DNA from: Maritimibacter alkaliphilus | GTDB taxonomy: Bacteria > Pseudomonadota > Alphaproteobacteria > Rhodobacterales > Rhodobacteraceae | DNA length: 64,000 bases | Assembly (NCBI RefSeq): GCF_019801605.1 | Contig: NZ_JAHVIT010000001.1 | Location: 1,488,001-1,552,000 of the forward strand | Direction: 5' to 3' | Part shown: in pieces, positions 5,655-58,470 of the stretch | Position numbering within the stretch: the stretch's first letter is position 1 | Layout of the letters: each line of letters begins with the position of its first letter | Program-made: the position numbers and the translations under genes | Notes under the pieces: generated by a model | What the model was told of the DNA's origin: nothing | Databases searched by the model: none | Seen by the model: the letters and a program-made list of their open reading frames with translations, nothing else

Positions 5655-5920
5655 AAATATCCTCGGGGGTGAATTGCGGGCCCCGCCCGCAAGAGGGGGC
5701 AGACAGCCCCCTCCCACGCCCTCCCGGCACGGACCAGGGGTCCACGGCGTGCCCCCGCGCGCGCCGCGTGCCCAAAATTCTTCCAAGAATTTTGCCAAGA
5801 ATTTTCCAAAATTCTTGACCCCACGGCGCCGTCACGCGCCCCCCCCTCCCCGCGTGATGCGCTCCCGGCCGTGCCCGTTTTCTGCAAAGAAAACGGACCG
5901 GAAAATGCGCATTTTCCGGG
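5655..5920 (+). repeat. intergenic 3' element, copy A (hairpins plus AT palindromes)
   Basis: Copy A of a family seen six times in this window. It starts 30 bases after the eda stop with a CGAAATATCC block. Hairpin 1 is TTGCGGGC/GCCCGCAA (5674-5681 with 5685-5692). Hairpin 2 is GAGGGGGC/GCCCCCTC (5693-5700 with 5706-5713). Then come nested AT palindromes built from AAAATTCTT and AAGAATTTT (5774-5816), a CCGTTTTCT/AGAAAACGG pair (5875-5896) and a perfect 22-base palindrome with half-site CCGGAAAATGC (5898-5919). It fills the gap between two convergent genes and probably includes the terminator for eda. Confidence 0.75.
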
Positions 5921-5991
5921 CAGCCCCGACCTGTCCGCGAACGGCTCCAACCAAGCCTCGCGCCCTCCAGACCGCGCTCAGACCGTTCCGC

Positions 5992-6258
5992 CTAGGTCCG
6001 GCGTCCGCGCCAGCCGCCGCGCCGACGGCCCGCGACCGGGGCGCCCTGCGCCTCGCGCAGGATCACCGTCATCGGATGGTCCGGTGCCACGGGCCCATGC
6101 CGCGCCACCAGATCGGTGAGGGCAGCCTGCACATCCGCGCCCTCGGGCAGCGACAGCGCCCAGTCCATGAAGACCGTTCGGCATTCCTCCGTGTTGATCC
6201 CCTCGATCCGGTAGGCCTCGCGGATCAGGGCCTTGGGGTCCTGTGCATCGCCTTTCAT
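5992..6258 (-). CDS. small conserved-type hypothetical protein coupled to glnE
   Basis: An 88-residue protein starting at the ATG 6256-6258 (or one codon earlier at a GTG, giving 89). The N-terminal two thirds look like a real small domain: AYRIEGINTEECRTVFMDWA followed by LSLPEGADVQAALTDLVARH. The C-terminus is a short Arg/Gly-rich tail. The start codon shares its A with the glnE stop (TGATG), so it is almost certainly translated from the glnE mRNA by re-initiation. I do not recognise a function. It may be a Rhodobacterales-specific protein and could be linked to nitrogen control only by position. Confidence 0.7.
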   Translation of the reverse strand: MKGDAQDPKALIREAYRIEGINTEECRTVFMDWALSLPEGADVQAALTDLVARHGPVAPDHPMTVILREAQGAPVAGRRRGGWRGRRT

Positions 6259-9158
6259 CACGCCTCCGTCCCGTCCGTTTCAGCAGGGCCCGCCTGAGTC
6301 CGGCCCATCTCAGTCCCGCCCGTCTCAGCCCCGCCCATCTGCGTGCCATCAACCTCGGTTTCGAGCGCCGCCGGGTCCAGCGCCAGCGCTGCCCCGATCC
6401 GCGCCGCTGCGGCGGCACAGGTCGCCTCCAGCTGCGTCTCCAATCCGGCGATGTCCTCCGCCCCGGTCTCACGCAACAGGAAGGCCCGCCCGCCCTCGCC
6501 GATCGCCTCCGGGTCGAGCGGCTTGTCACTCAGCAGCTTTGCCACCTGCCCGACCCGCCAGCAGAGCCGGTAGGCCGCGCGCAGGTCGGCGCCCGCCTCG
6601 GCCGGCAGCCAGCCGATCCGCTCCGCCGCGGCCAGGCCCGCCTCGAAGCTGCCGGAGATCTCGCGCCCCATCAGCGCGGCCGCCTGCACCGTCAGTTCGA
6701 TGTCCTGGTTGTGGCCAGGCCCGACCTTCACGTCCCAGGGCCCCGCCGGCGCCTTTGCCCGGGCGATCCGCTCCCGCATCTCGGACAGCGCGGGCATCAC
6801 CTCCTCCGCCGGGCGGCCCTGCCCCAGCACCTCGGCCCGGAGCGCGGTCACCTCCTCGGCCAGCCCGGCGTCTCCGCACATGACGCGCGCGCGGGTCAGC
6901 GCCATGTGTTCCCAGACCCAGGCCTCGCCGCGCTGATACTCGGTGAAGGCGGTCAGCGAGGTCGCCACCGGGCCCTGGTTGCCCGAGGGCCGCAGCCGCA
7001 TGTCGACCTCGTAGAGCCGCCCCTCCGCCATCTGCGCCGAGAGCCCGGTGACAAGCGCCTGCGTCAGCCGGGCATAGTAGGTCCGCGCCGCCAGCGGTCG
7101 CTTGCCCTCGGAGGTTTCCACCCCGGCCGCGTCGTAGATCACGATCAGGTCGAGGTCGGAGCGGGCGTTCAGCCGCCCCGCCCCCAGCGAGCCCATGCCC
7201 ACCACGACGGCCCCGCGTCCCGGCGGCGGCCCGTGGCGGCGCGAGAAATCGGCGACCACCACGGGCCAGAGCCCGCGCAGCACCGCCTCGGCGATGTCTG
7301 CGTAGTGCATCCCCGCTTCCTCGGCCTCGATCAACCCGCGCAGGTGGTGCACGCCGACACGGAAGTGCCATTCCTTCAGCCAGCGACGGGCGGCATCAAG
7401 CCGGGTCTCGTAGTCGTCCTCGTTCTGCAAAACCGCCGTCAGCTCTTTGCAAAGGGCCTCCAGCCCCGGCCAGGGCGCAAAGAACCGTCCCCCGATTACC
7501 GCGTCGAAGACAGAGGCATTGCGCGACAGGTAGCGCGCCAGATCGGGCGCGGTGCCGACGATATCGCCCAGCAGGTCGATCAGCTGCGGGTTGGCCTCGA
7601 AGAGCGAGAAGACCTGCACCCCCGCGGGCAGCCCGGCCAGGAACCCGTCGAGCGCCAGCAGCGCCTCGTGCGGATGGGCGGCGCGGGCCAGGCGGGTCAG
7701 GATCTCGGGCTTGAGACGCTCGAAGATCTCCTGCGCGCGGGAGGAGCGCAGCGCCGGATAGCCGCGCCACCGGGCGATCACCTCGGCGTCGTAGTCAGGC
7801 ATCTCGCAGGGCTCGGCCGGGGCGGCCCGACCACCGCCGTTCTCCTCGCGGGCAAAGAAATGCTCGACGATCTCGTGCACCTCGGTCAGCCGGGCACGGA
7901 TGTCTTGCGCCAGATCCGCCTCCTCGCGGCCCATGAGCGCGGCGATCCGGGTCAGCCCCTCACCGCCCGAGGGCAGCGCGTGGGTCTGGGCGTCGTTCAC
8001 CATCTGGAGCCTGTGCTCCACCTCGCGGTGCGCGCGGTAATGGCCGGTCAGCGCCTCGGCCACCTCGCCGGGCACCCAGCCCTTGTCGGCCAGGGCCGCG
8101 AGGGCGGGTACGGTGCCCCGGATGCGCAGCTCCGGATCCCGGCCCCCTGCGATGATCTGGTGGAACTGGGTGAAGAACTCGACCTCGCGGATGCCGCCGC
8201 GCCCCAGCTTCATGTTGTGGCCGTCCAGCGTGATCGGCCCGTGCAGCCCCTTGTGATCGCGGATCGCGCGGCGCATGTCGTGGGCGTCGCGGATCGCGGC
8301 GAAATCCAGATGCCGCCGCCAGACGAAGGGCCGCAGGTCGTCGAGGAACCGCTGCCCCGCCGCAAGGTCGCCCGCACAGGGCCGCGCCTTGATATAGGCC
8401 GCCCGCTCCCACGTCCGCCCGAGGCTTTCGTAGTAGCGCTCCGCCGCCTCCATCCCGACGCAGACCGGCGTGACGGAGGGATCGGGCCGCAGCCGCAGAT
8501 CGGTGCGGAAGACATAGCCCTCCGCGGTGATCTCGCTCAGCGTGGCGGCCATGCGCCGGGTCGCGCGGATATAGGCAGGCCGGGCCTCGAGGAAGGCATC
8601 GGCGTCAAACCGCGCCTCGTCGTAGAGCACGATCAGGTCGATGTCGGAGGAATAGTTCAGTTCCCGCGCGCCGCCCTTGCCCATGGCCAGCACGACCATG
8701 CCTGCGCCGTCCTCAAGCGCCGCCTCGTCCATGCCGGGCAGCTTGCCACGCTTCACTTCCCGCGCGAGCGCCGCCTTCAGCGCCACGTCGGTGGCCAGAT
8801 CGGCAAAGCCGCTCAGCCGGCCCGTCACCTCCTCCAGCGCCCAGACCCCGCCGAGATCCGCAAGCGCGGTCAGCAGCGCCACCCGGCGTTTGCCCTGCCG
8901 CAGGGCGCTCTCGACGTTGTCCTGCCCCGGCAGGTCGGCGTGCAGCCCGTCCAGAGCCGCCTCGGGATCGTCGAAGGCGGCCCGCAGCCAATCGGCTTCG
9001 CGGTGCATGAGGCCGAGGAGATAGGGGCTACACCCGCCCGTCCCCTCGATCAGCTCGAGCAGTTCCGGGGCGAGATCGGGCAGCAGCGCCCGCGCCTCCG
9101 CGCCCCTCTCGGGGTCGAAAGGCCGGGGGCAGCGGGTCATGCGGGCAGCGAATGTCAT
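6258..9158 (-). CDS. glnE: bifunctional glutamine synthetase adenylyltransferase/adenylyl-removing enzyme
   Basis: A 966-residue enzyme that adds AMP to and removes AMP from glutamine synthetase GlnA under control of PII. Two nucleotidyltransferase domains are visible: the N-terminal one with VVLAMGKGGARELNYSSDID (about 155-174) and the C-terminal one with GMGSLGAGRLNARSDLDL (about 652-669). Both carry the SDxD metal pair. Around the second domain, YEVDMRLRPSGNQGPVATS is also diagnostic. The second motif has GMGS instead of the usual GxGK, which may be a lineage trait. The start is the ATG at 9158; an in-frame ATG at 9140 is possible. The upstream extension of the open frame is not protein-like. 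The gene is followed without a gap by a small coupled gene. Confidence 0.95.
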   Translation of the reverse strand: MTFAARMTRCPRPFDPERGAEARALLPDLAPELLELIEGTGGCSPYLLGLMHREADWLRAAFDDPEAALDGLHADLPGQDNVESALRQGKRRVALLTALADLGGVWALEEVTGRLSGFADLATDVALKAALAREVKRGKLPGMDEAALEDGAGMVVLAMGKGGARELNYSSDIDLIVLYDEARFDADAFLEARPAYIRATRRMAATLSEITAEGYVFRTDLRLRPDPSVTPVCVGMEAAERYYESLGRTWERAAYIKARPCAGDLAAGQRFLDDLRPFVWRRHLDFAAIRDAHDMRRAIRDHKGLHGPITLDGHNMKLGRGGIREVEFFTQFHQIIAGGRDPELRIRGTVPALAALADKGWVPGEVAEALTGHYRAHREVEHRLQMVNDAQTHALPSGGEGLTRIAALMGREEADLAQDIRARLTEVHEIVEHFFAREENGGGRAAPAEPCEMPDYDAEVIARWRGYPALRSSRAQEIFERLKPEILTRLARAAHPHEALLALDGFLAGLPAGVQVFSLFEANPQLIDLLGDIVGTAPDLARYLSRNASVFDAVIGGRFFAPWPGLEALCKELTAVLQNEDDYETRLDAARRWLKEWHFRVGVHHLRGLIEAEEAGMHYADIAEAVLRGLWPVVVADFSRRHGPPPGRGAVVVGMGSLGAGRLNARSDLDLIVIYDAAGVETSEGKRPLAARTYYARLTQALVTGLSAQMAEGRLYEVDMRLRPSGNQGPVATSLTAFTEYQRGEAWVWEHMALTRARVMCGDAGLAEEVTALRAEVLGQGRPAEEVMPALSEMRERIARAKAPAGPWDVKVGPGHNQDIELTVQAAALMGREISGSFEAGLAAAERIGWLPAEAGADLRAAYRLCWRVGQVAKLLSDKPLDPEAIGEGGRAFLLRETGAEDIAGLETQLEATCAAAAARIGAALALDPAALETEVDGTQMGGAETGGTEMGRTQAGPAETDGTEA

Positions 9159-9310
9159 GGCCGGAAGATGCGCCGGGCGGCAGGGCTGGTCAACAGCGGC
9201 GCGACGCGGAATAACGGGCGCGACCGAGGGGCGCAGCGCCCCCACGGGACAGGCAACGGGACAAGGGTGCCCCCGCGCCTCTATCCTGCCCGACACTGAA
9301 GGAGACGCAG

Positions 9311-9778
9311 ATGAGCAAGAGCAAGGCCCGCGTGGCCCGCGCATTGGAGGAGGCCGGTATCGCGACCGAGATCGCGGACGTGGGCAAGGCGCGCACCGCG
9401 CAGGAGGCCGCCGACTCGGTCGGCTGCGAGATCGACCAGATCGCCAAGTCGATCATCTTCCGCGGCGAGGCCTCGGGCGAGGCGATCCTCTTCCTCACCG
9501 CGGGCGGCAACCGGGTGGACGGCGCCAAGGCCTCGGAGCTGGCGGGCGAAGAGCTGGGCAAGGCAGACGCGGCGCTGATCCGGGCGCAGACCGGCTTTGC
9601 CATCGGCGGCGTGGCCCCCGTCGGCCACCTGAACCCGATCCGCGCCTTCCTCGACCCGCGCCTGCTGGAGTTCGAGACGATCTGGGCCGCCGCGGGCACG
9701 CCGACCCATGTCTTCCCGATGAAATCCGCCGACATGGCCCAGCTGACCGGCGCTCAAGTCTCTGATTTCACGTCGTGA
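9311..9778 (+). CDS. YbaK/ProX-type aminoacyl-tRNA deacylase
   Basis: A 155-residue single-domain protein of the YbaK/EbsC/ProX editing family, which hydrolyses mischarged tRNA (for example Ala- or Cys-tRNAPro) in trans. Diagnostic parts are EIDQIAKSIIFRG with the conserved Lys, FLTAGGNRVD, ADAALIRAQTGFAIGGVAPVGH with the GxxPxGH substrate loop, and a late PTHVFPMKSADM segment. Length and layout fit a free-standing editing protein. The start ATG at 9311 follows a GGAG. It is divergent from glnE. Which aminoacyl group it removes cannot be read from the sequence. Confidence 0.9.
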   Translation: MSKSKARVARALEEAGIATEIADVGKARTAQEAADSVGCEIDQIAKSIIFRGEASGEAILFLTAGGNRVDGAKASELAGEELGKADAALIRAQTGFAIGGVAPVGHLNPIRAFLDPRLLEFETIWAAAGTPTHVFPMKSADMAQLTGAQVSDFTS

Positions 9779-9786
9779 TCCGGCAT

Positions 9787-9805
9787 ATGTAAAAAACATT
9801 TACTT
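9787..9805. promoter_or_regulatory. operator-like inverted repeat, upstream copy
   Basis: ATGTAAA-AAACA-TTTACTT is an inverted repeat with 7-base arms (6 of 7 paired) and a 5-base spacer. It is almost the same as the second copy at 9845-9863. The two copies flank a promoter-like pair (TTGCAA, 17 bases, GATCTA), as expected for a repressor that loops or blocks at two sites. Confidence 0.5.
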
Positions 9806-9811
9806 CGACCC

Positions 9812-9840
9812 TTGCAATGCGGGGACACCATCCCGATCTA
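9812..9840 (+). promoter_or_regulatory. candidate promoter of the DUF2852 gene
   Basis: TTGCAA at 9812-9817 and GATCTA at 9835-9840 are spaced by 17 bases. The pair lies between two inverted repeats and 45 bases before the start codon. The -10 is only a fair match to the sigma-70 consensus. Confidence 0.4.
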
Positions 9841-9844
9841 GGAG

Positions 9845-9863
9845 ATGTGAAAGACATTCACAT
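9845..9863. promoter_or_regulatory. operator-like inverted repeat, downstream copy
   Basis: ATGTGAA-AGACA-TTCACAT is a perfect inverted repeat with 7-base arms and a 5-base spacer, starting 4 bases after the candidate -10. It pairs with the copy at 9787-9805. The binding protein is unknown. Confidence 0.55.
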
Positions 9864-9884
9864 CAACCAACGGAGAGAACCGAG

Positions 9885-10334
9885 ATGACCCCCGCAACTG
9901 CCCCTGCCTATGCAACCCAGCCCATGGGCTGGCTCGGCAAGGCCGAAGCATGGCTCGACAGCAAGGGTAAGGGAGCCTGGATCGCCGCAATGGTGCTTGG
10001 CTTCATCCTCTTCTGGCCTGTCGGCCTCGCCCTTCTCGCCTACATGATCTGGAGCAAGAAAATGTTCAGCAAGTCCTGCCGCCGTTCGTCCTCCTCCGAC
10101 ATGCGTCGCAGCGCCTATACGGCGATGCGCTCCAGCGGGAACAACGCCTTCGACGCCTACAAGGCCGACATGCTGCGCCGGCTCGAAGACGAGCAGAAGA
10201 GCTTCGAGGACTTCCTCGAGCGGCTGCGCGACGCCAAGGACAAGGCCGAGTTCGACCAGTTCATGGACGAACGCGCCAAGAAGGCCGCAGCCGAGCGTGA
10301 CGCCGCCCCGATCCGCGACGAGGAAACCGCCTGA
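9885..10334 (+). CDS. DUF2852 domain-containing membrane protein
   Basis: A 149-residue protein of the DUF2852 family, frequent in Rhodobacterales and of unknown function. Residues 1-30 are soluble. One strong membrane segment follows (WIAAMVLGFILFWPVGLALLAYMIW, about 31-56). A basic SKKMF stretch, a serine-rich linker and a long charged C-terminal helix (about 85-140, rich in Glu, Lys and Asp) look like a coiled coil facing the cytosol. The start ATG at 9885 follows GGAGAG. Two matching inverted repeats flank the promoter, so the gene is likely under tight specific control. Confidence 0.85.
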   Translation: MTPATAPAYATQPMGWLGKAEAWLDSKGKGAWIAAMVLGFILFWPVGLALLAYMIWSKKMFSKSCRRSSSSDMRRSAYTAMRSSGNNAFDAYKADMLRRLEDEQKSFEDFLERLRDAKDKAEFDQFMDERAKKAAAERDAAPIRDEETA

Positions 10335-10478
10335 GGCCCTGCCCTCCACGCATTGGCCCCCCGATCTCAGCGGGGGCCACGGCCACCGCGCGCGCACCGG
10401 CGCGCCCAGACCTGAAACGGCACCACCGGCCGGCCCCCTTTCGGGGCCGGCGCGGCCCCTGACCTCCCTTCCTGCCCA

Positions 10479-10952: not shown

Positions 10953-10975
10953 CACAGCCGCGCCATGAGACAAGC

Positions 10976-11003
10976 AAAGCCGCTCCCCCGGGGGCGGCTT
11001 TTT
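10976..11003 (+). terminator. strong intrinsic terminator after the RDD gene
   Basis: AAAGCCGC and GCGGCTTT arms enclose CCCCC/GGGGG, followed by TTTTTC. It starts 24 bases after the stop codon. Confidence 0.85.
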
Positions 11004-12348: not shown

Positions 12349-12351
12349 CGC

Positions 12352-13109: not shown

Positions 13110-15464
13110 TCAGTTTCCGATCAGGTCCGGCACGATCGTCACGATCCCCGGCACGAACCACAGCAGCGCCAGCCCCAGCACCTGGATCAGCACGAAGGGC
13201 ACGATCCCGCGGTAGATATGGCCGGTCGTCACGCTCGCCGGGGCGACACCGCGCAGGTAGAACAGCGCGAAGCCGAAGGGCGGCGTCAGGAACGAGGTCT
13301 GCAGGTTCACCGCGATCATGATCGTCACCCACTTCGGATCGAAGGTGCCGCCGTAGATCACCGGCCCCACGATCGGGATCACGATGTAGATGATCTCGAG
13401 GAAGTCGAGCACGAAGCCGAGGATGAAGAGCACCAGCATCACGATCAGGAAGACCGTGAACTCGTTGTCGAAGCTCTTCAGGAACTGCTGGATGTAGTGT
13501 TCGCCGCCGAAGGAGATCACCACGAGGTTCAGCAGCTGCGAGCCGATCAGGATGGTGAAGACCATCGAGGTCACCTTGGCCGTCTCACGCACCACCGGTT
13601 TCAGCACCGCCGTGCTCCAGAGCACCCAGCAGGAGTAGAAGAGACCGAAGGCCGCGTAGAGGAAGGCCGCATAGGCCACCACGAATGCGATCCAGCTCTC
13701 GGCGCTGACGCTCTCCTGCGTGATCCGCAGGTCGAAGTTCACGCCCACGAGGATCATCACGATCACCGCCAAGGTGGCGTTGATGATGACCTTGCCGCTT
13801 TGGCCTAACTCGCGCTTCTTGCGATAGGCCGCCAGCATCAGCGCACCGGCCGCGCCGAGCGCCGCTGCCGGCGTCGGGTTGGTGATGCCGCCGAGGATCG
13901 ACCCCAGCACCGCGACGATCAGGATCAGCGGCGGGAAGACCACGCGGATCAGCTCGTTCTCGGCCAGGCGCGCCGCGGCATGCTTGCAGCCCCAGAGCGC
14001 CACTGCGACCGGGATCGCGAGGATGGCCACCGTGGCCCCCGAGGACATGTCGGGCGAGATGAAGAGCACGTCGAGCAGCGCCGCAACCAGCACCCCGCCG
14101 AGGCCGATGGCCAGCGGCTTGGGATCGGCCAGCGGATCGGCACCACGGGCGGTGGTCAGGATCAGCGCCAGCGTCAGCAGCAGCACGGCCACACCGGTGC
14201 CGATCGGGGCGGCGGCGGCCATCTTGGCACTGCGCGCGGCCTCGATCTCTTCCGGGGTCAGGCGATGCGCCTCCTGCACCCCGCCCGAGGCGGCGATGGC
14301 TTCGGCTTCCTGCACGGCGACGTTCCAGGCATCCTGACCGTGCAGCGCGATCATCGCTTCGCGGCAGCTGTCAGAGACGTTGGTGCGCAGCGAGGCGACC
14401 TGCCCGGCCTCCGAGAAGGTGTCCACCGCGAGGCTCTGGGAGCCGACGATGCCCACCTGCCCCAGCAGCACCACCAGCACGACCAGCGCCGCCGGCACGA
14501 AGAGGAACCAGGTCAGGCCTTCGCTGCGGGTGATGGTCTTGCCGCCCGAGGCCTCGATCTGCACCGCAGGCGCCTTGGACGGGTTGAAGAGCGCATAGCC
14601 GAAGGCATAGGCCGCATAGAGCACCGCCAGCAGGATGCCCGGCAGCATGGCCGACTGGAACAGCGTGCCGACCGAGACCACCGCGGGCTTGCCGAGGTAG
14701 GTCAGCGCGTCGCTGCACCCGACGGTCTGGGCGCGGGCTTCCTGTGCCTGGCTGTAGAGGTCACCCGCCAGCGTGCCCAAAAGGACGATCACGATGGAGG
14801 GCGGAATGATCTGCCCCAGCGTCCCCGAGGCCGCGATGACCCCGGTGGACAGCTCAGGCGAGTAGTTGTTGCGCAGCATGGTGGGCAGCGAGAGCAGGCC
14901 CATGGTCACCACGGTGGCCCCCACGATGCCGGTGGAGGCGGCGAGGAAGGCACCCACGACGACGACCGACACGGCCAGACCGCCGGGCAGCGGGCCGAAG
15001 ACGCGCGCCATGGTGGTCAGCAGGTCGTTCGCGATCTTGGAGCGTTCCAGCGTGATGCCCATCATGACGAACATCAGCACCGCCAGCAGCGTCTCGATTG
15101 ACTGACCGGCGAGCACGCGCTCGTTGATCCGGTTCACGATGAAGCTGACGTTGCGGTCCAGCGCCACGTCCCAGCCGCGGTCAAAGACCGGCTGCGCGAT
15201 CCTTGGCAGGTCAGGATATCGGAAGATCGAAATCGCATCCGGGTGGATGCCGCTGTCCGTCAGCGTGCGATACATGTCCGAGGACGTGTCGATCGCCTGG
15301 TGGATCAGCAGGCCCGAACTGTCGAGCACCGCGATGATCCCGAAGGAAATGGCCCCCGCACCACCGATGGCAAAGGCCACCGGGAAGCCGGAGAGGATCC
15401 CGCCGAAAAGGCACAGGAAGACGATAATCAGGCCGATCTCGACCCCATCAAGTCCGAAAAGCAT
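13110..15464 (-). CDS. TRAP transporter large permease (DctM family), extended
   Basis: A 784-residue inner-membrane protein forming the Na+-coupled transport channel of a TRAP uptake system. The N-terminal GFPVAFAIGGAG, SNDLLTTMARVFGPLPGGLAVS-like and ASGTLGQIIPPSIVIVLLG segments, and the C-terminal LQTSFLTPPFGFALFYLRG segment, are classical DctM landmarks. Typical DctM proteins are near 430 residues. Here a central block of about 300 residues (roughly 240-560), containing a soluble charged loop near 340-400 and extra membrane segments, separates the two conserved halves. Long forms occur in alphaproteobacteria. It begins 13 bases after dctQ and ends the operon. Confidence 0.92.
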   Translation of the reverse strand: MLFGLDGVEIGLIIVFLCLFGGILSGFPVAFAIGGAGAISFGIIAVLDSSGLLIHQAIDTSSDMYRTLTDSGIHPDAISIFRYPDLPRIAQPVFDRGWDVALDRNVSFIVNRINERVLAGQSIETLLAVLMFVMMGITLERSKIANDLLTTMARVFGPLPGGLAVSVVVVGAFLAASTGIVGATVVTMGLLSLPTMLRNNYSPELSTGVIAASGTLGQIIPPSIVIVLLGTLAGDLYSQAQEARAQTVGCSDALTYLGKPAVVSVGTLFQSAMLPGILLAVLYAAYAFGYALFNPSKAPAVQIEASGGKTITRSEGLTWFLFVPAALVVLVVLLGQVGIVGSQSLAVDTFSEAGQVASLRTNVSDSCREAMIALHGQDAWNVAVQEAEAIAASGGVQEAHRLTPEEIEAARSAKMAAAAPIGTGVAVLLLTLALILTTARGADPLADPKPLAIGLGGVLVAALLDVLFISPDMSSGATVAILAIPVAVALWGCKHAAARLAENELIRVVFPPLILIVAVLGSILGGITNPTPAAALGAAGALMLAAYRKKRELGQSGKVIINATLAVIVMILVGVNFDLRITQESVSAESWIAFVVAYAAFLYAAFGLFYSCWVLWSTAVLKPVVRETAKVTSMVFTILIGSQLLNLVVISFGGEHYIQQFLKSFDNEFTVFLIVMLVLFILGFVLDFLEIIYIVIPIVGPVIYGGTFDPKWVTIMIAVNLQTSFLTPPFGFALFYLRGVAPASVTTGHIYRGIVPFVLIQVLGLALLWFVPGIVTIVPDLIGN

Positions 15465-20948: not shown

Positions 20949-21150
20949 CTTCATCTTTCCCCAAATACCTCCGGGGGGAATTGCGCGGCGCAGCCGCGCA
21001 AGGGGGGCAGCGCCCCCACGGAATTTTCAAAAATTCCGGTCCGGAAAATTCGAATTTTCCGGAACTCCCGCTCTCTCGGCCCCCGACCCCTCTGCCCCGC
21101 GCCGAAAATTCTTCGAAGAATTTTCCCAAGAATTTTCGAAAATTCTTGGC
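20949..21150 (+). repeat. intergenic 3' element, copy B
   Basis: It begins 5 bases after the methyltransferase stop with CTTCATCTTTCC and AAATACCTCC. Hairpin 1 is TTGCGCGGC/GCCGCGCAA with loop GCA (20981-21001). Hairpin 2 is GGGGGC/GCCCCC (21003-21017). AT palindromes follow: GGAATTTT/AAAATTCC (21020-21037), a perfect 22-base palindrome with half-site CCGGAAAATTC (21041-21062), and nested AAAATTCTT/AAGAATTTT units to 21147. Same orientation as the upstream gene. Confidence 0.75.
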
Positions 21151-37546: not shown

Positions 37547-37610
37547 CTCATCTTTCGCTCGGAAATATCCCCGCCGGAGGCCCCGTCCGCAGGACGGGCT
37601 CTGCCTCAGA
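37547..37610 (+). repeat. intergenic 3' element, copy C (short form)
   Basis: A CTCATCTTTCG block 18 bases after the hydrolase stop, then GGAAATATCCCCGCCGGAGG and one hairpin CCCGTCC/GGACGGG with loop GCA. The AT palindromes of other copies are absent. It sits between convergent genes and is read in the sense of the upstream gene. Confidence 0.65.
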
Positions 37611-39353: not shown

Positions 39354-39616
39354 CATCATCTTTCCGAAAATACTCCGGGGGAATTGGCCCCGGCACGGGG
39401 CCAAGGGGGCAGAGCCCCTGCACCCTTCCCCCGGACGGACCGAGAACGCCCAAGCCCCCCCCCGGCCCGGAACAGAGATTGCGCCGCGGCGTGCCCGCCA
39501 TCGCGGCACCGACTGTCTGGACAGGATCGTAGCGCCCGACGCAAAGCACCCAAAATTCTTCGAAGAATTTTGCAAAGAATTCTCGAAAATTCTTTGTGGT
39601 GCCCCGAGGGGCTTTT
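39354..39616 (+). repeat. intergenic 3' element, copy D
   Basis: It begins 14 bases after the stop with CATCTTTCCGAAAATACTCC. Hairpin 1 is TTGGCCCCG/CGGGGCCAA with loop GCA (39384-39404). Hairpin 2 is GGGGC/GCCCC around AGA (39406-39418). AT palindromes follow at 39553-39595 (AAAATTCTTCGAAGAATTTT, then a degenerate copy). The end, TGCCCCGAGGGGCTTTTCT, is a good intrinsic terminator in the same direction. It separates a plus-strand gene from the minus-strand tRNA genes. Confidence 0.75.
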
Positions 39617-39638: not shown

Positions 39639-39715
39639 TGGCGCGGTTGACGGGGCTCGAACCCGCGACCCCCGGCGTGACAGGCCGGTACTCTAACCAA
39701 CTGAGCTACAACCGC
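39639..39715 (-). tRNA. tRNA-Asp (GTC), downstream copy
   Basis: A 77-base tRNA with acceptor GCGGTTG/CAACCGC, discriminator G and encoded CCA. The D loop has AGCTCAGTTGGTTAGAG, the anticodon loop CTGTCAC gives GTC, and the T arm is CGGGTTCGAGCCCCG. It is the second of two copies in the transcript. Confidence 0.96.
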
Positions 39716-39746: not shown

Positions 39747-39823
39747 TGGCGCGGTTGACGGGGCTCGAACCCGCGACCCCCGGCGTGACAGGCCGGTACT
39801 CTAACCAACTGAGCTACAACCGC
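39747..39823 (-). tRNA. tRNA-Asp (GTC), upstream copy
   Basis: Identical in sequence to the copy at 39639-39715, including the encoded CCA, and separated from it by 31 bases. It is the promoter-proximal copy of a two-gene tRNA transcript. Confidence 0.96.
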
Positions 39824-44832: not shown

Positions 44833-44859
44833 CGGATCCAGACGGCCCCCCTCCGGGCC

Positions 44860-45082
44860 TTCATCTTTCCAAAAATACTCACTGCGCGCCCCTCACCGGG
44901 CCCGCAGCCCCACCGCACCGCCACCCAAGAATGTTCGAAAATTCTTGGGAAAATTCTCCGAAGAATTTTGGGCGCGCGTCTGAACGCCTGCGCCCGGGTC
45001 AACCGCCCCGCCCGCGGCAGGCCCCCCGGAATTTTCGAAAATTCAGGTCCGTTTTCTTCGAAGAAAACGGGGAGCGCCGCAC
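44860..45082 (+). repeat. intergenic 3' element, copy E
   Basis: TTCATCTTTCCAAAAATACTC starts the element 28 bases after the stop (written here from 44860). The two GC hairpins are not preserved. AT palindromes are abundant: CAAGAATgTTCgAAAATTCTTG (imperfect, 44926-44947), AAAATTCTCC/AAGAATTTT, GAATTTTCGAAAATTC (45031-45046) and CCGTTTTCTTCGAAGAAAACGG arms (45049-45070). It lies between convergent genes in the sense of the upstream one. Confidence 0.7.
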
Positions 45083-45089: not shown

Positions 45090-45632
45090 CTACCGTGTCA
45101 GCGCCTTGCCAAGCCTCGGCAGCCGCGCCTTCTTCATCAGCGCCCGCATCTCCCAGTCCTCACCGGAGAGGCGCCGCGCCTCGGCCAGAACCGCCGCGCC
45201 CACTTCCGCGACGGCCTCGGGCTGCGCCTCGCAGACCCTCAGCAGGAAGCCGTCGGGATCGGCCCGCGACAGCCCCTCCTCGGCGAGGATGTCGCGCGGG
45301 AAATCCTTGGCGTTCATGGTCACGATCACGTCGGCCGAGCCCGCCACGGCGGCAGCCAGCACATGCACATCCGCCGGATCAGGCAGCCAGAGACGTGCCT
45401 CCAGCCCCGGCGCCACGGGCACCTCGGCCCGCGGCCAGCGGGCGGAGACGAGGGCGATCTCCCCCCGCGCCTGTGCCTCGCCCCCCGGGCCCAGCTTGCG
45501 CGCGGCAAGCGCCCATTCCTCGAGGATGCGGGCGGACCAGAGCGGCTGATAGGCCCCCGTGGCCGCCACGCCGAGCAGCATCTCCCGCATCACCGTGGGA
45601 TAGAGCACGCAGGCGTCGAGCAGGACCTTCAT
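45090..45632 (-). CDS. PIN domain protein coupled to an rRNA methyltransferase gene
   Basis: A 180-residue PIN-domain protein, a fold of Mg2+-dependent ribonucleases. Acidic active-site positions are likely Asp6 (VLLDACVLYP), Glu39 region (ARILEEWA), Asp86-Asp89 region (PDPADVHVLAAA) and Asp102/109 (ADVIVTMNAKDF). No antitoxin gene is present. Its ATG overlaps the stop of the methyltransferase gene (ATGA), so it is made from the same mRNA. This matches a PIN family known in Rhodobacterales rather than a VapBC toxin. Inference: a housekeeping RNA-processing role. Confidence 0.8.
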   Translation of the reverse strand: MKVLLDACVLYPTVMREMLLGVAATGAYQPLWSARILEEWALAARKLGPGGEAQARGEIALVSARWPRAEVPVAPGLEARLWLPDPADVHVLAAAVAGSADVIVTMNAKDFPRDILAEEGLSRADPDGFLLRVCEAQPEAVAEVGAAVLAEARRLSGEDWEMRALMKKARLPRLGKALTR

Positions 45633-51577: not shown

Positions 51578-51624
51578 CCCGGCAGGCACGGGACGCAATT
51601 CCATGCTGGAGAGGAAAAGAACGG

Positions 51625-52314: not shown

Positions 52315-52325
52315 GGAATATTTCC
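52315..52325. promoter_or_regulatory. AT-centred near-palindrome in the lrp-cysG gap
   Basis: GGAATATTTCC, near-symmetric, lies 64 bases before cysG and 94 before the divergent regulator. Lrp-type proteins prefer such AT-centred sites, so it is a weak candidate for the regulator's target. Confidence 0.3.
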
Positions 52326-52388
52326 TACATTGAGGGGCAAGTCAACGCGACCCCACGGGGTTGCCCGAGCCATGCGGAGGGGTTCAGA

Positions 52389-53692: not shown

Positions 53693-53695
53693 GTC

Positions 53696-55366
53696 ATGTA
53701 TACCTATAACGAATTCGACACCGCCTTCCTTGCCGAGCGCAACCGCCAGTTCCGCGCCCAGGTCGAGCGCCGCATCGACGGCTCGCTGACCGAGGACGAG
53801 TTCAAGCCGCTGCGCCTGATGAACGGTCTCTACCTGCAGCTGCACGCCTACATGCTGCGCGTGGCCATTCCCTATGGCACGCTCTCGGGCGCTCAGATGC
53901 GCCAGCTGGCCCTGATCGCGGATCGCTGGGACAAGGGCTATGGCCATTTCACCACGCGCCAGAACATCCAGTACAACTGGCCCAAGCTGCCGGATGTGCC
54001 GGACATGCTGGACGCGCTGGCCGAGGTGCAGCTGCATGCGATCCAGACCTCGGGCAACACGATCCGCAACGTGACCGCCGATCACTTCGCCGGGGCTGCC
54101 GCGGACGAGATCGCCGATCCCCGCCCCGTGGCCGAGCTGATCCGCCAGTGGTCCACCGACCATCCGGAATTCCAGTTCCTGCCGCGCAAGTTCAAGGTCG
54201 CCGTCACCGGCAGCCCGAACGACCGCGCCGTGACCCGCGCCCATGACATCGGCCTGCGCATGGTGCGGAACGACAAGGGCGAACCGGGCTACGAGGTGCT
54301 GGTGGGCGGCGGTCTGGGCCGCACGCCGATGATCGGCAAGGTGATCAAGGACTTCCTGCCGCAGGAAGACCTGCTGCCCTATCTGGAAGCCATCGTCAGC
54401 GTCTACAACCTGCTGGGCCGTCGCGACAACAAGTACAAGGCGCGGATCAAGATCACCGTGCACGAGAACGGGCTGGAGACGATCCGCGAGAAGGTGGATG
54501 CGCGCTTCGCCGAGCTGAAGCCGCTCTTCGGCGGCATCGACCAAGCGATGCTGGCGGATCTGGAGGCGCAGTTCGCGCCGCCTGCCTTCCGCAATGCGCC
54601 GGCCGAGGCCTTCGACGCCGCCTATGCCGCCGATCCCGTGTTCCGCGCCTGGAGCGACACGAACCTGACCAAGCACAAGGCCGAAGGCTATGCCATCGTC
54701 TCGGTCAGCCTGAAGAAACCGGGCGAGACGCCGGGCGATGCGACCTCGGACCAGATGCGCGTTCTGGCGGATCTGGCCGAACGCTATGGCCACAACGAGC
54801 TGCGCATCAGCCACGAGCAGAACGTGATCCTGCCCCATGTGCACCGCTCGGACCTGCCCGCGCTGCACGCGGCGCTGAAAGAGGCCGATCTGGCCACCGC
54901 GAACATCGGTCTGGTCAGCGACATCATCGCCTGCCCCGGCATGGACTACTGCGCCCTTGCCACCGCCCGGTCGATCCCGGTCGCGCAGGAGATCGCGCAG
55001 CGCTTCGAGGAGCTGAAGCTGGCCCATGAGATCGGCCCGCTGAAGATCAAGATCTCGGGCTGCATCAACGCCTGCGGCCACCACCACGTGGGTCACATCG
55101 GGATTCTCGGTCTGGACCGCGCGGGGGTGGAGAACTACCAGATCACCCTCGGCGGTGACGGTACCGAGGACGCGGCCATCGGCCAGCGGACCGGCCCCGG
55201 CTTCGCCTATGACGAGATCACCGATGCGATCGAGCGGATCCTGCTGACCTACCTGGAAATCCGCGAAGACGAGGACGAAACCTTCCTGCAAACCTATCGC
55301 CGCGTGGGGGCCGCCCCGTTCAAGGCCGCGCTCTACCCGGCAGAGGCCAAGGCAAATGCAGCCTGA
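53696..55366 (+). CDS. cysI: assimilatory sulfite (nitrite/sulfite) reductase hemoprotein
   Basis: A 556-residue siroheme and [4Fe-4S] enzyme that reduces sulfite to sulfide. The substrate-binding part shows YGHFTTRQNIQYNWPKL with the siroheme-contacting Arg, and the cluster cysteines are in IACPGMDYCALA and ISGCINACGHHHVGH. The two-fold repeat of the family is present. Electrons probably come from ferredoxin through the reductase at 56602, since no CysJ flavoprotein is nearby. A nitrite-reducing role is less likely given the flanking cysG and cysH. It is in the middle of the cys operon. Confidence 0.94.
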   Translation: MYTYNEFDTAFLAERNRQFRAQVERRIDGSLTEDEFKPLRLMNGLYLQLHAYMLRVAIPYGTLSGAQMRQLALIADRWDKGYGHFTTRQNIQYNWPKLPDVPDMLDALAEVQLHAIQTSGNTIRNVTADHFAGAAADEIADPRPVAELIRQWSTDHPEFQFLPRKFKVAVTGSPNDRAVTRAHDIGLRMVRNDKGEPGYEVLVGGGLGRTPMIGKVIKDFLPQEDLLPYLEAIVSVYNLLGRRDNKYKARIKITVHENGLETIREKVDARFAELKPLFGGIDQAMLADLEAQFAPPAFRNAPAEAFDAAYAADPVFRAWSDTNLTKHKAEGYAIVSVSLKKPGETPGDATSDQMRVLADLAERYGHNELRISHEQNVILPHVHRSDLPALHAALKEADLATANIGLVSDIIACPGMDYCALATARSIPVAQEIAQRFEELKLAHEIGPLKIKISGCINACGHHHVGHIGILGLDRAGVENYQITLGGDGTEDAAIGQRTGPGFAYDEITDAIERILLTYLEIREDEDETFLQTYRRVGAAPFKAALYPAEAKANAA

Positions 55367-55376
55367 GGGGATCACG

Positions 55377-56159
55377 ATGCCACCACTGGACAAGCCACTC
55401 GAGGTGCCGGACGATCCGGCCCTCGCCGCCAAGTTGCGTGAACAGCAGGCGAAGGTGGATGCGCTGAACCTGCGCTACAAGCACCACGGCGCGACCGCGG
55501 TCATCGACAAGGCACTGCAGGACACGGACGCGGGCGATCTCGCCCTCGTCTCCTCCTTCGGGGCCGAGTCGGTCGTGCTGCTGCACCTCGTTTCCGTCGT
55601 GGATCGCAGCACGCCGGTGATCTTCATCGACACCGAGATGCTGTTCACCGAGACCCTGGTCTACCAGTCCGAGATCGCGGAGCGTCTGGGGCTGCAGGAC
55701 ATGCGCATCATCCGCGCCGCCGAGGCCGAGATCGCCGCCGGCGACCCGGACGGCACGCTGCACCAGCGCGACACCGATGCCTGCTGCGCCCTGCGCAAGA
55801 CCGCGCCGCTGCAGAAGGCGCTGCAGGGTTTCGACGGCTGGTTCACCGGCCGCAAGCGGTTCCAGGGCGCGACCCGGGAGACGCTGGACTTCTTCGAGGT
55901 CGACGGGCCGGACCGGATCAAGGTCAACCCGCTGGCCCACTGGGCGCCGGAGGACATCCGCGCCTACATGGACGAGAACCGCCTGCCGCGCCATCCGCTG
56001 GTCGCCAAGGGCTATCCCTCGATCGGTTGCGCGCCCTGCACCTCGCCTGTGAAAGAAGGTGAAGATCAGCGTGCAGGCCGTTGGAGAGGCACACAAAAAG
56101 AGGAATGCGGCATCCATTTCGTGAATGGCCGCATGGTACGGATCGGAGCCGGACAATGA
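55377..56159 (+). CDS. cysH: assimilatory adenylyl-sulfate (APS) reductase
   Basis: A 260-residue thioredoxin-dependent reductase that converts activated sulfate to sulfite. SSFGAESVVLLHLVS (59-73) is the nucleotide loop, TGRKRFQGATR (157-167) binds the phosphosulfate, and ECGIH carries the catalytic Cys244. The paired cysteines Cys136-Cys137 and Cys218/Cys221 bind a [4Fe-4S] cluster; this marks the APS-using form rather than the PAPS-using enteric form. The start ATG at 55377 is chosen for its GAGGGG site; an ATG at 55356 inside cysI is the alternative. The last bases overlap the DUF934 gene. Confidence 0.94.
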   Translation: MPPLDKPLEVPDDPALAAKLREQQAKVDALNLRYKHHGATAVIDKALQDTDAGDLALVSSFGAESVVLLHLVSVVDRSTPVIFIDTEMLFTETLVYQSEIAERLGLQDMRIIRAAEAEIAAGDPDGTLHQRDTDACCALRKTAPLQKALQGFDGWFTGRKRFQGATRETLDFFEVDGPDRIKVNPLAHWAPEDIRAYMDENRLPRHPLVAKGYPSIGCAPCTSPVKEGEDQRAGRWRGTQKEECGIHFVNGRMVRIGAGQ

Positions 56160-56542
56160 GCGTGATCGTGACCGACAAGGGCTTTGCCCCCGAGGACTGG
56201 ACCGAAGGGTTCGAGGCGGAAGGCGTGCTGGATCTGCCTTCCGATACCGACCCGCAGGCGGTAGACTTCGACGCGGCCACCCGGCTGATCCGCGTGGCCT
56301 TCCCCTCCTCGGCCGATGGCCGGGGCTTCACCATCGCCCGCCAGCTGCGCCTGCGGGGCTACACCGGCCGCCTGCGGGCCGCCGGCCACGTCATCGCCGA
56401 CCAATACGCCATGGCCCGCCGCGCGGGCTTCGACGAGGTCGAGATCGACGAGAGCCTCGCCGCGCGCCAGCCCGAATCCCAGTGGATCTTCCGTGCCGAC
56501 TGGCGCGCCCATGACTATCAGTCGCGGCTGCGCGCCGGCTGA
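56156..56542 (+). CDS. DUF934 domain-containing protein
   Basis: A 128-residue protein of the DUF934 family, commonly found at the end of alphaproteobacterial cys operons. RLIRVAFPSSADGRGFTIAR then QLRLRGYTGRLRAAGHVIAD is the conserved core, with the GRGFTIAR-type motif. The reaction is unknown; it may aid sulfite reduction. It overlaps cysH by ATGA, which suggests coupled translation. Start ATG at 56156. Confidence 0.9.
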   Translation: MSVIVTDKGFAPEDWTEGFEAEGVLDLPSDTDPQAVDFDAATRLIRVAFPSSADGRGFTIARQLRLRGYTGRLRAAGHVIADQYAMARRAGFDEVEIDESLAARQPESQWIFRADWRAHDYQSRLRAG

Positions 56543-56601
56543 GCCACTGGATTATTTGAACACGAACGAGTAAGGACGGGATACTCCTCCCGCAATTTGC
56601 C

Positions 56602-57435
56602 ATGACCGAGACCGCCGTGACCGAACAGCAGACCAATGTCCCCAAGGTGCCGACCCTGCCGAATGCAGAGACGATCACCGAAGTGAAGCACTGGACCGAC
56701 CGGCTCTTCTCCTTCCGGGTCACCCGGCCCGCCAGCCTGCGCTTCCGCTCGGGCGAATTCGTGATGATCGGGCTCATGGGCGACAACGGCAAGCCGCTGC
56801 TGCGTGCCTATTCCATCGCCTCGCCCAGCTGGGACGAAGAGCTCGAGTTCTACTCGATCAAGGTTCAGGACGGCCCGCTGACCTCCAAGCTTCAGCACAT
56901 CGAGGTGGGCGACCAGATCATCCTGCGCCCCAAGCCCGTGGGCACGCTGGTGCATGACGCGCTGCTGCCGGGCAAGCGGCTGTGGTTCTTCGCCACCGGC
57001 ACCGGCTTTGCGCCCTTCGCCTCCCTGCTGCGCGAGCCGCAGACCTACGAGGATTACGACGAGGTGGTGATCACCCACACCTGCCGCGAAGTGGGTGAGC
57101 TGGCCTATGGCGCGCAGCTGATCGAGGACATCAAGAACGACGAGTTGCTGCACGAGCTGATGGGCCCGGATTTCCACAAGAAAATCCGCTACTATCCGAC
57201 CACGACCCGCGAAGAGAGCCCCAAGATGGGCCGCATCACCGACCTGATGCGCTCGGGCGAGGTCTTTGCCGATCTCGGCATCGACCCGATCAACCCCGAC
57301 ACCGACCGCGCCATGGTCTGCGGCAACCTCGCCTTCAACCTCGAGATCAAGGAGCTTCTCGAAGGCTACGGTCTGGAGGAAGGCGCGAATTCCGCGCCCA
57401 AGCAATACGTGGTCGAGAAGGCCTTCGTCGACTGA
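56602..57435 (+). CDS. ferredoxin-NADP(+) reductase
   Basis: A 277-residue flavoenzyme of the bacterial FPR type. RAYSIASPSWDEELEFYSIK is the FAD-binding block with the RxYS motif; GPLTSKLQHIEVGD follows; FFATGTGFAPFASLLREP is the NADP-binding start; and AMVCGNLAFN contains the CG of the active site. It moves electrons between NADPH and ferredoxin or flavodoxin and could feed the sulfite reductase just upstream (59 bases). A terminator follows, so it may be the last gene of that transcript or have its own promoter. Confidence 0.94.
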   Translation: MTETAVTEQQTNVPKVPTLPNAETITEVKHWTDRLFSFRVTRPASLRFRSGEFVMIGLMGDNGKPLLRAYSIASPSWDEELEFYSIKVQDGPLTSKLQHIEVGDQIILRPKPVGTLVHDALLPGKRLWFFATGTGFAPFASLLREPQTYEDYDEVVITHTCREVGELAYGAQLIEDIKNDELLHELMGPDFHKKIRYYPTTTREESPKMGRITDLMRSGEVFADLGIDPINPDTDRAMVCGNLAFNLEIKELLEGYGLEEGANSAPKQYVVEKAFVD

Positions 57436-57475
57436 GCCGATCGGGCAAAGCGTCTGAAAGCATACAAGAAAACGG

Positions 57476-57503
57476 AGCCGTTCCCGCCCCGGGGGCGGCT
57501 TTC
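57476..57503 (+). terminator. terminator after the ferredoxin reductase gene
   Basis: AGCCG...CGGCT outer arms around a CCGCCCC/GGGGCGG core, followed by TTTC, 40 bases after the stop. Confidence 0.65.
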
Positions 57504-57568
57504 TCCTGCCCGGCACCGGCCGCGTGGCGTCGCGGCCCATCGAATTCCCGCGGAACCGTCTTTCCAGC

Positions 57569-57597
57569 TTGAAAGTTTAGCCGGTGGAGACTACCTT
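57569..57597 (+). promoter_or_regulatory. candidate infC promoter
   Basis: TTGAAA (57569-57574), a 17-base spacer and TACCTT (57592-57597) lie 38 bases before the start codon. The -35 is good and the -10 weak. Confidence 0.4.
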
Positions 57598-57635
57598 CTC
57601 GCCTCAATTCCATTCACCATCGAAGGACGAATAAA

Positions 57636-58181
57636 ATAGCTCGCAGACCTCATAATGCGCCCCCGACGCGCGACAATGGCCCCCGTGTTAACGACCGTAT
57701 CCGTGCGCCCGAAATTCGGCTGATTGGCGCGGAAGGCGAAAACGTCGGCGTGGTTCCCCCGGCACGTGCCCTCGCCATGGCGGAAGAAGCTGGCCTCGAT
57801 CTGGTCGAGATCTCCCCCAATGCGACCCCGCCGGTCTGCAAGATCATGGATTTCGGCAAGTTCAAGTACGAACAGCAGAAGCGCGAGTCCGAAGCCCGCA
57901 AGAAGCAGAAGACGATCGAGGTGAAGGAGGTGAAGTTCCGCCCCGGCACCGATGTGCACGACTACCAGGTCAAGATGCGCAACGTCCTCAAGTTCCTTGA
58001 AGGCGGCGACAAGGTGAAGATCACCCTGCGCTTCCGCGGCCGCGAGATGGCGCACCAGAACCTCGGACGTGAGCTTCTGGAACGCGTCGCCGAGGACGTG
58101 AAGGAACTCGGCAAGGTCGAGAACATGCCCAAGATGGAAGGCCGCCAGATGGTCATGATGATTGGGCCGGTCGCCAAGTAA
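57636..58181 (+). CDS. infC: translation initiation factor IF-3, starting at AUA
   Basis: A 181-residue initiation factor that holds 30S subunits apart from 50S and checks start codons. The N-domain reads [20 protein letters not shown] (18-37), the linker is [15 protein letters not shown], and the C-domain has [20 protein letters not shown]. No ATG, GTG or TTG lies in frame before 57750, where the protein would lose 38 conserved residues. AAGGA at 57623-57627 is 8 bases before ATA at 57636, which starts a typical N-terminus ([10 protein letters not shown]). IF-3 genes often use rare start codons (AUU in E. coli) so that IF-3 limits its own synthesis. A terminator follows, so rpmI/rplT are not co-transcribed. 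Confidence 0.9.
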
Positions 58182-58203
58182 GCGCCGCCCGCCATCTCCA
58201 AGC

Positions 58204-58230
58204 AAGGCCCGGCATCGTCCGGGCCTTTTG
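58204..58230 (+). terminator. terminator after infC
   Basis: AAGGCCCGG and CCGGGCCTT form a 9-base-pair stem with a 6-base loop, followed by TTG, 22 bases after the stop. Confidence 0.85.
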
Positions 58231-58257
58231 CATGTCTGGCCTCTGCACGCGCTTCCC

Positions 58258-58470
58258 CGGGGCACCCAAGAATTTTCGAAGAATTTTGGTCGCGCGGCGC
58301 GCGGGATGGACCCGGTTGGCGGAGGGGCACAGCCTCTTCTCTGGCGCTGCCCGGAAAATTCGAATTTTCCGGTTCGGACTTTTCGAAAAGTCCGGGGGGG
58401 GCTCTGCCCCCTTGGCCCCGGTGGGGCCAATTCCCCCGGAGTATTTCCGGAAAGATGAAGGGCGCCGCAG
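58258..58470 (-). repeat. intergenic 3' element, copy F (inverted orientation)
   Basis: Read on the minus strand, it starts near 58460 with TTCATCTTTCCGGAAATACTC, 60 bases after the coxS stop. It continues with hairpin 1 TTGGCCCC/GGGGCCAA (58430-58412), hairpin 2 GGGGGC/GCCCCC (58411-58397), palindromes GGACTTTTCGAAAAGTCC (58376-58393) and CCGGAAAATTC-based (58350-58371), and AAGAATTTT units near 58265-58288. It is the only copy in minus orientation, and the gene just upstream of it (coxS) is also on the minus strand. Confidence 0.75.

Follow-up and report, generated by a model that had tools for sequence, protein, structure and literature searches.

Structured gene-end elements of Maritimibacter alkaliphilus belong to a larger, modular repeat family

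What are the structured sequences that recur at the ends of genes in Maritimibacter alkaliphilus, and do they form one element with one orientation? In a window of 64,000 nucleotides (the whole stretch analysed here, positions 1,488,001 to 1,552,000 of contig NZ_JAHVIT010000001.1), a preliminary description had reported six copies of a single hairpin-bearing element, always in the sense of the preceding gene. The observation proved real and bigger than first reported and is partly confirmed: the orientation rule and the unity of the element were not borne out.

All six copies were found where they had been placed, and they are members of a larger unannotated repeat family. Its core unit, here called the A element, runs in the order word, free bases, tail, G-run 1, hairpin 1, G-run 2 and hairpin 2. 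The pattern CATCTTTCNNNAAATA, with at most one mismatch allowed, matches 82 times in the 4.91-Mb genome of the window, and its backward control does not match at all. An 860-kb sample of this genome (18% of it), picked without use of the pattern, holds 44 A elements detected by two regular expressions, none of the 44 inside a called gene. Beyond this sample we took 40 further stretches that cover most, not all, of the 82 matches; since these were picked by the pattern, only the 44 elements of the sample represent an unbiased count. A covariance model, the construction of which had been proposed in the preliminary description, recovered copies 1, 2, 4 and 6 at E values of 2e-5 to 6e-12 over the 860 kb, and yielded 37 matches at E ≤2.2e-5 and 40 at E ≤0.022. 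(A weak match at window positions 45452–45489 on the minus strand, with 16.8 bits and E 0.03, lies inside the called gene 45090–45632 and is probably due to chance.) These family-wide counts support the earlier claim of one repeated family near gene ends.

Four words occur side by side in the M. alkaliphilus genome, each tied to a tail: CTTCATCTTTCC, CATCCACTGTTC, CATCTTTCGCT and one that is rarer. Between word and tail lie two free bases, or three in elements of the CATCTTTCGCT subtype; the tail reads AAATAC(C)TCC or AAATATCC(TC), so that word, free bases and AAATAC(C)TCC or AAATATCC make up a near-fixed stretch of ~22 nt, often followed by two GC hairpins. The linker between G-run 1 and hairpin 1 is often AATTG or AGTC; after hairpin 1 come G-run 2, a loop (CAGCG, CAGAG or CAGACAG) and a C-run, which together form hairpin 2, and many copies end after AAATACTC. 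The type 1 word is paired with the AAATAC tail in 62/62 elements and the other words of this genome with AAATATCC in 24/24, while the hairpin-2 loop mostly tracks the word, being 5 nt long in 27 of the 30 type 1 elements that bear the two-hairpin pattern and 7 nt long in 18 of the 19 others. This linkage of word, tail and loop points to subfamilies copied as wholes. As many as 32 of the 62 type 1 elements lack the two-hairpin pattern yet have the word and the AAATAC tail, and some of these, such as copy 5, bear a hairpin of other sequence.

The AT palindromes that had been counted as part of the element are of two kinds, named B (AAAATTCTTCGAAGAATTTT...AAGAATTTTCGAAAATTCTT) and C (CCGGAAAATTCGAATTTTCCGG and its relatives). 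To take the six copies apart we used Pseudooceanicola nanhaiensis DP2Y115-3, the closest named record (98% protein identity for one gene), whose DNA is 87–95% identical over the main aligned stretches, with a median gene identity of 94%. The A element of copy 1 (5640–5712, plus strand, subtype 2) comprises the word ATCCACTGTTC, AAATATCCTC and G-run 1, a hairpin 1 with arms TTGCGGGC/GCCCGCAA and a hairpin 2 with the loop CAGACAG (fold z -4.3); it lies between convergent genes and is also found, with changes, in P. nanhaiensis, where the B module (5774–5817, plus) and the C palindromes (5875–5919; CCGTTTTC..GAAAACGG and CCGGAAAATGCGCATTTTCCGG) are missing from the orthologous spacer. Copy 2, the sole tandem-sense copy among the six, has a subtype 1 A element (20949–21017, plus; CTTCATCTTTCC-CC-AAATACCTCC, hairpins 1 and 2, fold z -3.3) that is missing in P. 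nanhaiensis along with two C palindromes (21019–21062), ~113 bp in all, and a B module (21105–21149, plus) that is unchanged there. Compared with positions 4533–4590 of the P. nanhaiensis locus (L129), this B module is identical within clearly diverged flanks, as if the AT palindromes were conserved, or had recently been homogenised, in their own right.

The remaining copies vary in their parts. Copy 3 (37549–37598, plus, convergent) belongs to another subtype, subtype 4 (CATCTTTCGCT..CCGCCGGAGGC), and reads CATCTTTCGCT-CGG-AAATATCCCCGCCGGAGGC followed by a single hairpin, CCCGTCC/GGACGGG, with a fold z of -1.0 that is not significant alone. Copy 4 (39354–39418, plus, convergent, subtype 1) has hairpins 1 and 2 (fold z -1.5, not significant alone) and is retained with substitutions in P. 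nanhaiensis, as is its B module (39552–39594, plus), which is followed by a terminator-like GCCCCGAGGGGC+TTTTCTC. Beyond it, on the minus strand, comes a tandem pair of tRNA genes (39642–39715 and 39750–39823) that score equally in Rfam. The core of copy 5 (44859–44907, plus, convergent, subtype 1, fold z -4.1) reads CTTCATCTTTCC-AA-AAATACTCA without G-runs and is set between a preceding hairpin GGCCC/GGGCC and, right after it, a hairpin of other sequence, CTGCG.GCCC/GGGC.CGCAG; the core and the B module (44926–44971, minus, inverted by eye relative to its A element) are both retained in P. nanhaiensis, and C palindromes lie at 45027–45070. Copy 6 (58397–58460, minus, subtype 1), which converges with an IF-3 gene, carries hairpins 1 and 2 (fold z -0.7, not significant alone) and is preceded by a hairpin GGGCGC/GCGCCC, both being retained in P. 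nanhaiensis; its C palindromes lie at 58351–58394 and its B module (58265–58289, minus) is shortened, the one in P. nanhaiensis being longer. Of the six, copies 1, 2, 4 and 6 have both hairpins, and copies 3 and 5 differ.

Fifty AT-rich palindromes were found in 660 kb of this 67% GC genome, none of them in genes. A full B unit lies within 350 nt of 7 of the 44 A elements, and 4 of the 11 B units in the 860 kb have no A element. Where A and B co-occur, B is downstream of A in 7/7 cases and in the same orientation in 6/7, so that B is not fully independent of A. The view of a single element that includes the AT palindromes did not hold, since these are modules of their own, which appear and disappear between close species without A; they are probably other repeats that share the gene-end niche.

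A stop codon lies 5 to 66 nt from the start of each of the six copies, and the copy has the direction of the gene that this codon closes, in agreement with the preliminary description. The rule "always in sense" holds for these six and fails for the family. Between convergent genes both orientations count as sense, and since five of the six copies are convergent, agreement is automatic there. Of 86 elements in the M. alkaliphilus genome, 46 are convergent, 16 tandem sense, 20 tandem antisense and 4 divergent; restricting the tandem elements to well-scored neighbours gives 14 sense to 19 antisense (p 0.49). In genome G005 the corresponding numbers are 10, 6, 12 and 1 (2 edge elements left out) and in genome G025 they are 13, 9, 7 and 1 (1 edge element left out). 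The near-equal tandem counts rule out a strict sense rule. All orientation counts come from a gene caller rather than curated annotation; its training set was nine seed ORFs, of which eight match a Pfam family and one (58515–58880) has an ill-fitting base composition, and for G005 and G025 it was retrained on 3-kb loci. What the family does show is a preference for type of spacer: over the 860 kb, 25 of the 44 elements are convergent against 19% expected by length (p 4e-8), and 2 of the 44 are divergent against 24% expected (p 0.001).

The position within the spacer is also uneven. In convergent spacers the word side is nearer its gene than the other side is to the opposite gene in 30/46 cases (Wilcoxon p 0.003). 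Among hairpin-bearing copies of M. alkaliphilus, the word lies within 20 nt of the sense stop codon in 14/26 convergent and 8/9 tandem-sense cases; in G005 the hairpin lies within 30 nt of the opposite stop codon in 7/10 convergent and 10/12 tandem-antisense cases. The same distance to the opposite stop is found in 3/14 of the tandem-antisense hairpin copies of M. alkaliphilus, which lie away from it, and the stop-codon rule therefore differs between genomes. G025 has 11 back-to-back pairs less than ~70 nt apart (for instance L289 and L307; a hand count of listed matches), which could form a long stem, and one pair in the opposite arrangement. At some tandem-antisense copies (L260, L279 and L283 in G005, L316 in G025), the next gene has its called start codon right at the reverse complement (GGAGTATTT..ATGAA), which might act as a ribosome binding site or start for that gene; as a general role, translation start was rejected, several words having no start codon there.

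We then asked how far the hairpins are kept as structures. Folded singly, copies 1, 2 and 5 exceed shuffled sequence in stability, and copies 3, 4 and 6 are no better than shuffles (29, 15 and 41 of 200 equally stable). Hairpin 1 has 73 different arms among 125 elements, a set that needs two G-runs and a C-run and comes partly from loci fetched by such patterns; without any alignment, a stem of at least 5 pairs forms in 97 of the 125, against 21% when arms are swapped between elements. In an alignment of 122 distinct sequences fitted to the structure (A3), the covariation score is 0.221 versus 0.069 (sd 0.006) in shuffles, a value that 0/500 of them reach, and sliding the partners brings it to 0.016–0.053; further pair types show a weak excess (24 versus 21.5, reached by 47/500 shuffles). 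An unfitted alignment (A1) gives a score of 0.187 versus 0.080 (0/500 shuffles), with neither the pairs changed on both sides (6 versus 5.7) nor the further types (12 versus 11.6) above shuffles. Related sequences can exceed shuffles in such a score, and hairpin 2 hardly varies, so it provides scant evidence of covariation. Taken together, the score, the stem counts and the diversity of arms uphold the earlier claim of hairpins with compensatory changes, and hairpin 1 appears to turn over fast yet remain paired. It is likely, though not proven, that the co-variation of the arms reflects conserved structure: templated mutation or repair in DNA palindromes can keep arms complementary and so mimic selection.

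The G-runs add a further regularity. G-run 1 and G-run 2 are equal in length in 109/125 elements, and the run lengths correlate, both G-runs tracking the C-run (rho 0.86, 0.70 and 0.63), which suggests that the two G-runs may be competitors for the C-run; two alike runs with one partner could make a bistable fold. Some folds pair the word with G-run 1, a pairing that was rejected because the score hardly falls (12.3 versus 11.7, 153 elements) once words are swapped between genomes.

Could the elements simply be terminators? A T-run after hairpin 2 is mostly missing, with at least 4 T in the first 8 nt in 24/125 elements, which does not support the element as an ordinary intrinsic terminator. 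Classical terminators, which the element might replace, are found in the convergent spacers of M. alkaliphilus at 8/36 sense ends, 16/36 opposite ends and 35/144 element-free ends; pooled over three genomes, the convergent sense ends have 9/51 versus 17/51 at opposite ends (p 0.11), and the tandem spacers 5/31 in sense versus 3/36 in antisense (p 0.46). A hairpin before the word has an energy below -12 in 30% of 71 M. alkaliphilus copies versus 14% of shuffled and 15% of shifted controls. That such a hairpin is an intrinsic terminator with the word as its T-tract was discarded as a general rule, as only a subset fits. At C1:1668378–1668641, compared with genome G159, a hairpin GGGCAG..CTGCCC is present in both species and is followed by TTCATCTTTCCCCAAATACTC in one and TTTTTCC in the other, so that the element core occupies the position of the relative's terminator T-tract.

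How stable are the elements in place? Across 272 orthologous spacers compared between M. alkaliphilus and P. nanhaiensis, 20 A elements of the former could be followed, of which 14 read as common to both species (six of these judged solely by a pattern hit in the same position) and 6 do not. Convergent elements are shared in 10/11 cases versus 4/9 for the others (p 0.05, hand tally). Besides the loci of copies 1 and 2, differences come in units: C1:1698903 differs by the absence of a block of ~330 bp comprising A, C and B; at C1:1637249 the two species differ in word and hairpin 1 together, as one block, and agree in hairpin 2; and in an inverted pair at C1:1579102 the word of both copies is CATCTTTCGCT in one species but CATCCACTGTTC in the other. 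This being an unpolarised comparison of two species, absence in one could be deletion.

Two places are occupied far more widely. Upstream of argF the element lies in sense in 14 of 30 genomes, mostly picked for carrying many copies, and in most of the 14 it stands right after the stop codon of the preceding gene; the spacer lacks the element in 14/30, M. alkaliphilus and P. nanhaiensis included. This tally scores G025 at locus L288, includes G092 (AAAGTACTC) and G104 (AAATACGCTC, with a different upstream gene) and leaves out degenerate remnants in G046 and G086; the gene names argF and argD were confirmed by family search at one locus (L228). The second place is the convergent spacer by the gene at window positions 13110–15464, where 19 of 47 genomes, counting only those in which a neighbouring gene was called no more than 700 nt away, have the element in one direction, some of them in degenerate form. 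The carriers include Leisingera, Ruegeria, Tritonibacter, Tateyamaria, Sulfitobacter, Salipiger and Antarcticimicrobium, among others; hairpin-1 arms are much changed among them, and several copies are followed by a hairpin and T-run (e.g., L132 and L139). In L186 this spacer also holds a second, inverted copy of another type. The same place and direction at two loci across genomes argue for a function at some places.

The explanation that we favour, tentatively and with somewhat less than even confidence, is that of a REP/BIME-like modular repeat that has multiplied by copying and persists at gene ends because its hairpins may act at RNA 3' ends in either direction. The A element would then be the core of a modular intergenic repeat family of Rhodobacteraceae, spreading through the copying of whole units and retained where strong hairpins would form a barrier at RNA 3' ends; such a barrier would block 3'-to-5' exonucleases or set a boundary between transcripts or segments, as between argD and argF. 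The gene-end placement, the covariation, the unit-size differences between species, the linkage of word and tail and the retention in place support it. Against it stand the one fixed direction at both conserved loci, which is needless for a part that works without regard to orientation, together with the absence of Y1_Tnp, the stop-codon rule that differs between genomes, the poor folding of copies 3, 4 and 6 alone and the linkage of A and B. The role at transcript ends or boundaries suggested in the preliminary description thus stays plausible, in view of the conserved sense placement upstream of argF, the 13110–15464 spacer and the depletion from divergent spacers; ordinary intrinsic termination is not supported.

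An explanation that we consider unlikely is that a trans-acting factor specific to the lineage (a protein that binds RNA or DNA, or else a guide RNA) reads the word beside AAATACTCC and directs termination or processing, the hairpins holding the 3' end. In its full form, doubtful on the sequence comparisons made here, this would be an undescribed 3'-end system of Rhodobacteraceae in which the factor reads an 11-nt dialect word two bases before AAATACTCC, past stop codons, the hairpins fix the end, and word and reader co-evolve. Its main support is the word itself, which is largely genome-specific and differs between genera: in 11 genomes not picked by word, word identity is 0.90 within versus 0.61 between genomes (0/300 label shuffles; at most 6 copies per genome within, 4 between), compared with 0.49 and 0.37 for the hairpin-1 region, and it becomes 0.92 and 0.62 with G025, kept out of the 11 because it was fetched by word. 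By eye, the word is nearly constant in G139 (TTCTTTTGGA, 18/18), G110 (TTCATCTTGC, 22/22 among the matches listed, of 62), G027 (TTCTTCYGGC, 12/13), G085 (TTCATCCTTG, 14/18 exact) and G005 (TTCATCTCTT, 27/29 rows), and several words are found in G010 (two, 13 and 6 of 20), G128 (TTCATTATTC in 16/39) and G035 (TTCWTTTGTG in 12/20), as in M. alkaliphilus; for all of these but G005 and M. alkaliphilus, counts are among the matches listed, with a non-G required at -20. The free bases between word and AAATA take 10 of the 16 dinucleotides in M. alkaliphilus type 1 elements, CC and CG being commonest; bases that vary beside a constant word suggest that the copies are not recent and that the word is under selection or repeatedly homogenised. 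The 12-mer CTTCATCTTTCC lies in elements in 21/21 occurrences in the 860-kb sample, and the 32 type 1 elements without the two-hairpin pattern retain word and AAATAC tail. What speaks against a reader is that the genomes with several words, M. alkaliphilus among them, are at odds with it, that the four tail-linked words of M. alkaliphilus are also what descent from founder copies would give, that the word in the argF spacer of G005 and of G027 is not the one common in that genome, that tandem orientation is random, and that no complement of the word was found outside elements in the 860-kb sample, 18% of the genome.

We regard it as improbable, too, that the family is simply a selfish or neutral palindromic repeat whose position reflects insertion sparing genes and promoters and whose arms are kept paired by templated mutation. 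Random tandem orientation, the avoidance of genes and divergent spacers, gain or loss between species and the existence of subfamilies all agree with such a repeat; it does not account for the same place and sense upstream of argF (14/30 genomes) and in one convergent spacer (19/47), for the higher sharing of convergent copies with P. nanhaiensis (10/11 versus 4/9 elsewhere, at p 0.05 by hand tally) or for a word that is constant beside free bases. Most improbable of all is a DNA-level signal between convergent genes (an uptake sequence, a supercoil or gyrase site or a nucleoid-protein site), to which the genome-specific words, the inverted back-to-back pairs of G025, the convergent enrichment and the 50 AT palindromes in 660 kb, none in genes, could be fitted; against it, the copies number tens and not thousands, none lies in a called gene, and a duplex binding site has no need of a paired, highly variable hairpin 1.

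The repeat family extends well beyond one genome. A core pattern, AAATAYTCCNGGGG, occurs in 76 of 148 Rhodobacteraceae genera, with up to 92 copies (backward control, 5 in all), and at least 5 matches were counted by hand in 51 of the 148. A stricter two-hairpin pattern matched 1 of 289 class-wide genomes, namely M. alkaliphilus, three other Rhodobacteraceae in that sample being negative; on this strict pattern, the family is likely restricted to Rhodobacteraceae. At gathering score, an Rfam search of the window matched only the two tRNAs, and below it copy 4 gave matches at chance level only, in keeping with the earlier remark that no named family was known for the element. One copy had no match in 50,697 phage records. 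Among plasmids, copy 4 matched two Paracoccus records, the annotated one in the convergent gap between a DUF4177 gene and slyX, and a 34-nt stretch matched 12 records (Paracoccus 3, Sagittula 3, Sulfitobacter 1, Thalassococcus 1, Prescottella 4), those of Prescottella through bases 8–34 only, the hairpin part. We found no description of the element in openly licensed literature, including the accessible portions of PMC12306157 and PMC1590033, and in the part of PMC7866481 available to us, MEME gave no motif for the 15 nt that precede PNPase-sensitive 3' ends in R. sphaeroides.

A structured gene-end repeat without an Rfam match, with a core pattern in 76 of the 148 genera of a large family, matters in either case. 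If functional, it bears on how mRNAs are ended or protected without T-runs in GC-rich bacteria; if it is mobile and nothing more, a REP-like family without a known mover has been added. Its largely genome-specific word makes the co-evolution of repeat and reader testable, since the word of one genus can be exchanged for that of another.

How does the family compare with known systems? Like intrinsic terminators, it has GC hairpins after stop codons, and a subset of elements directly follows a hairpin; unlike them, it is often antisense or between tandem genes and mostly lacks a T-run. HRC-8-4 and the Rhodobacterales motifs of PMC8632094 are, in the part of that paper available, likewise structured and restricted to Rhodobacterales; going by this description, HRC-8-4 is set apart by lying mainly at one locus and having a U-run. 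The DNA uptake sequence dialects of Neisseriaceae share with the element a genome-specific word round a shared core and inverted pairs in spacers, as far as the available text of PMC3630211 describes them; they have 1543–3770 copies there, unlike the 82 (M. alkaliphilus) and 101 (G025) copies found here, which have none in called genes in the sample and often have hairpins after the word. REP sequences carry a GTAG or CGTC tag at one end, according to the accessible part of PMC3733652. The unit described here is larger than in the REP/RAYT system and has a near-fixed stretch before hairpins whose hairpin-1 arms vary from copy to copy; Y1_Tnp (RAYT, PF01797) has no match in the M. alkaliphilus genome (5 of 14 control genomes matched), which leaves the family without a known mover. 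REP and BIME elements are short intergenic palindromes in many copies, built into multi-module composites, concentrated at gene ends and forming genome-specific families. The element resembles them in being short, palindromic, intergenic, present in many copies (44 in 860 kb, none in genes), modular and placed at the ends of genes.
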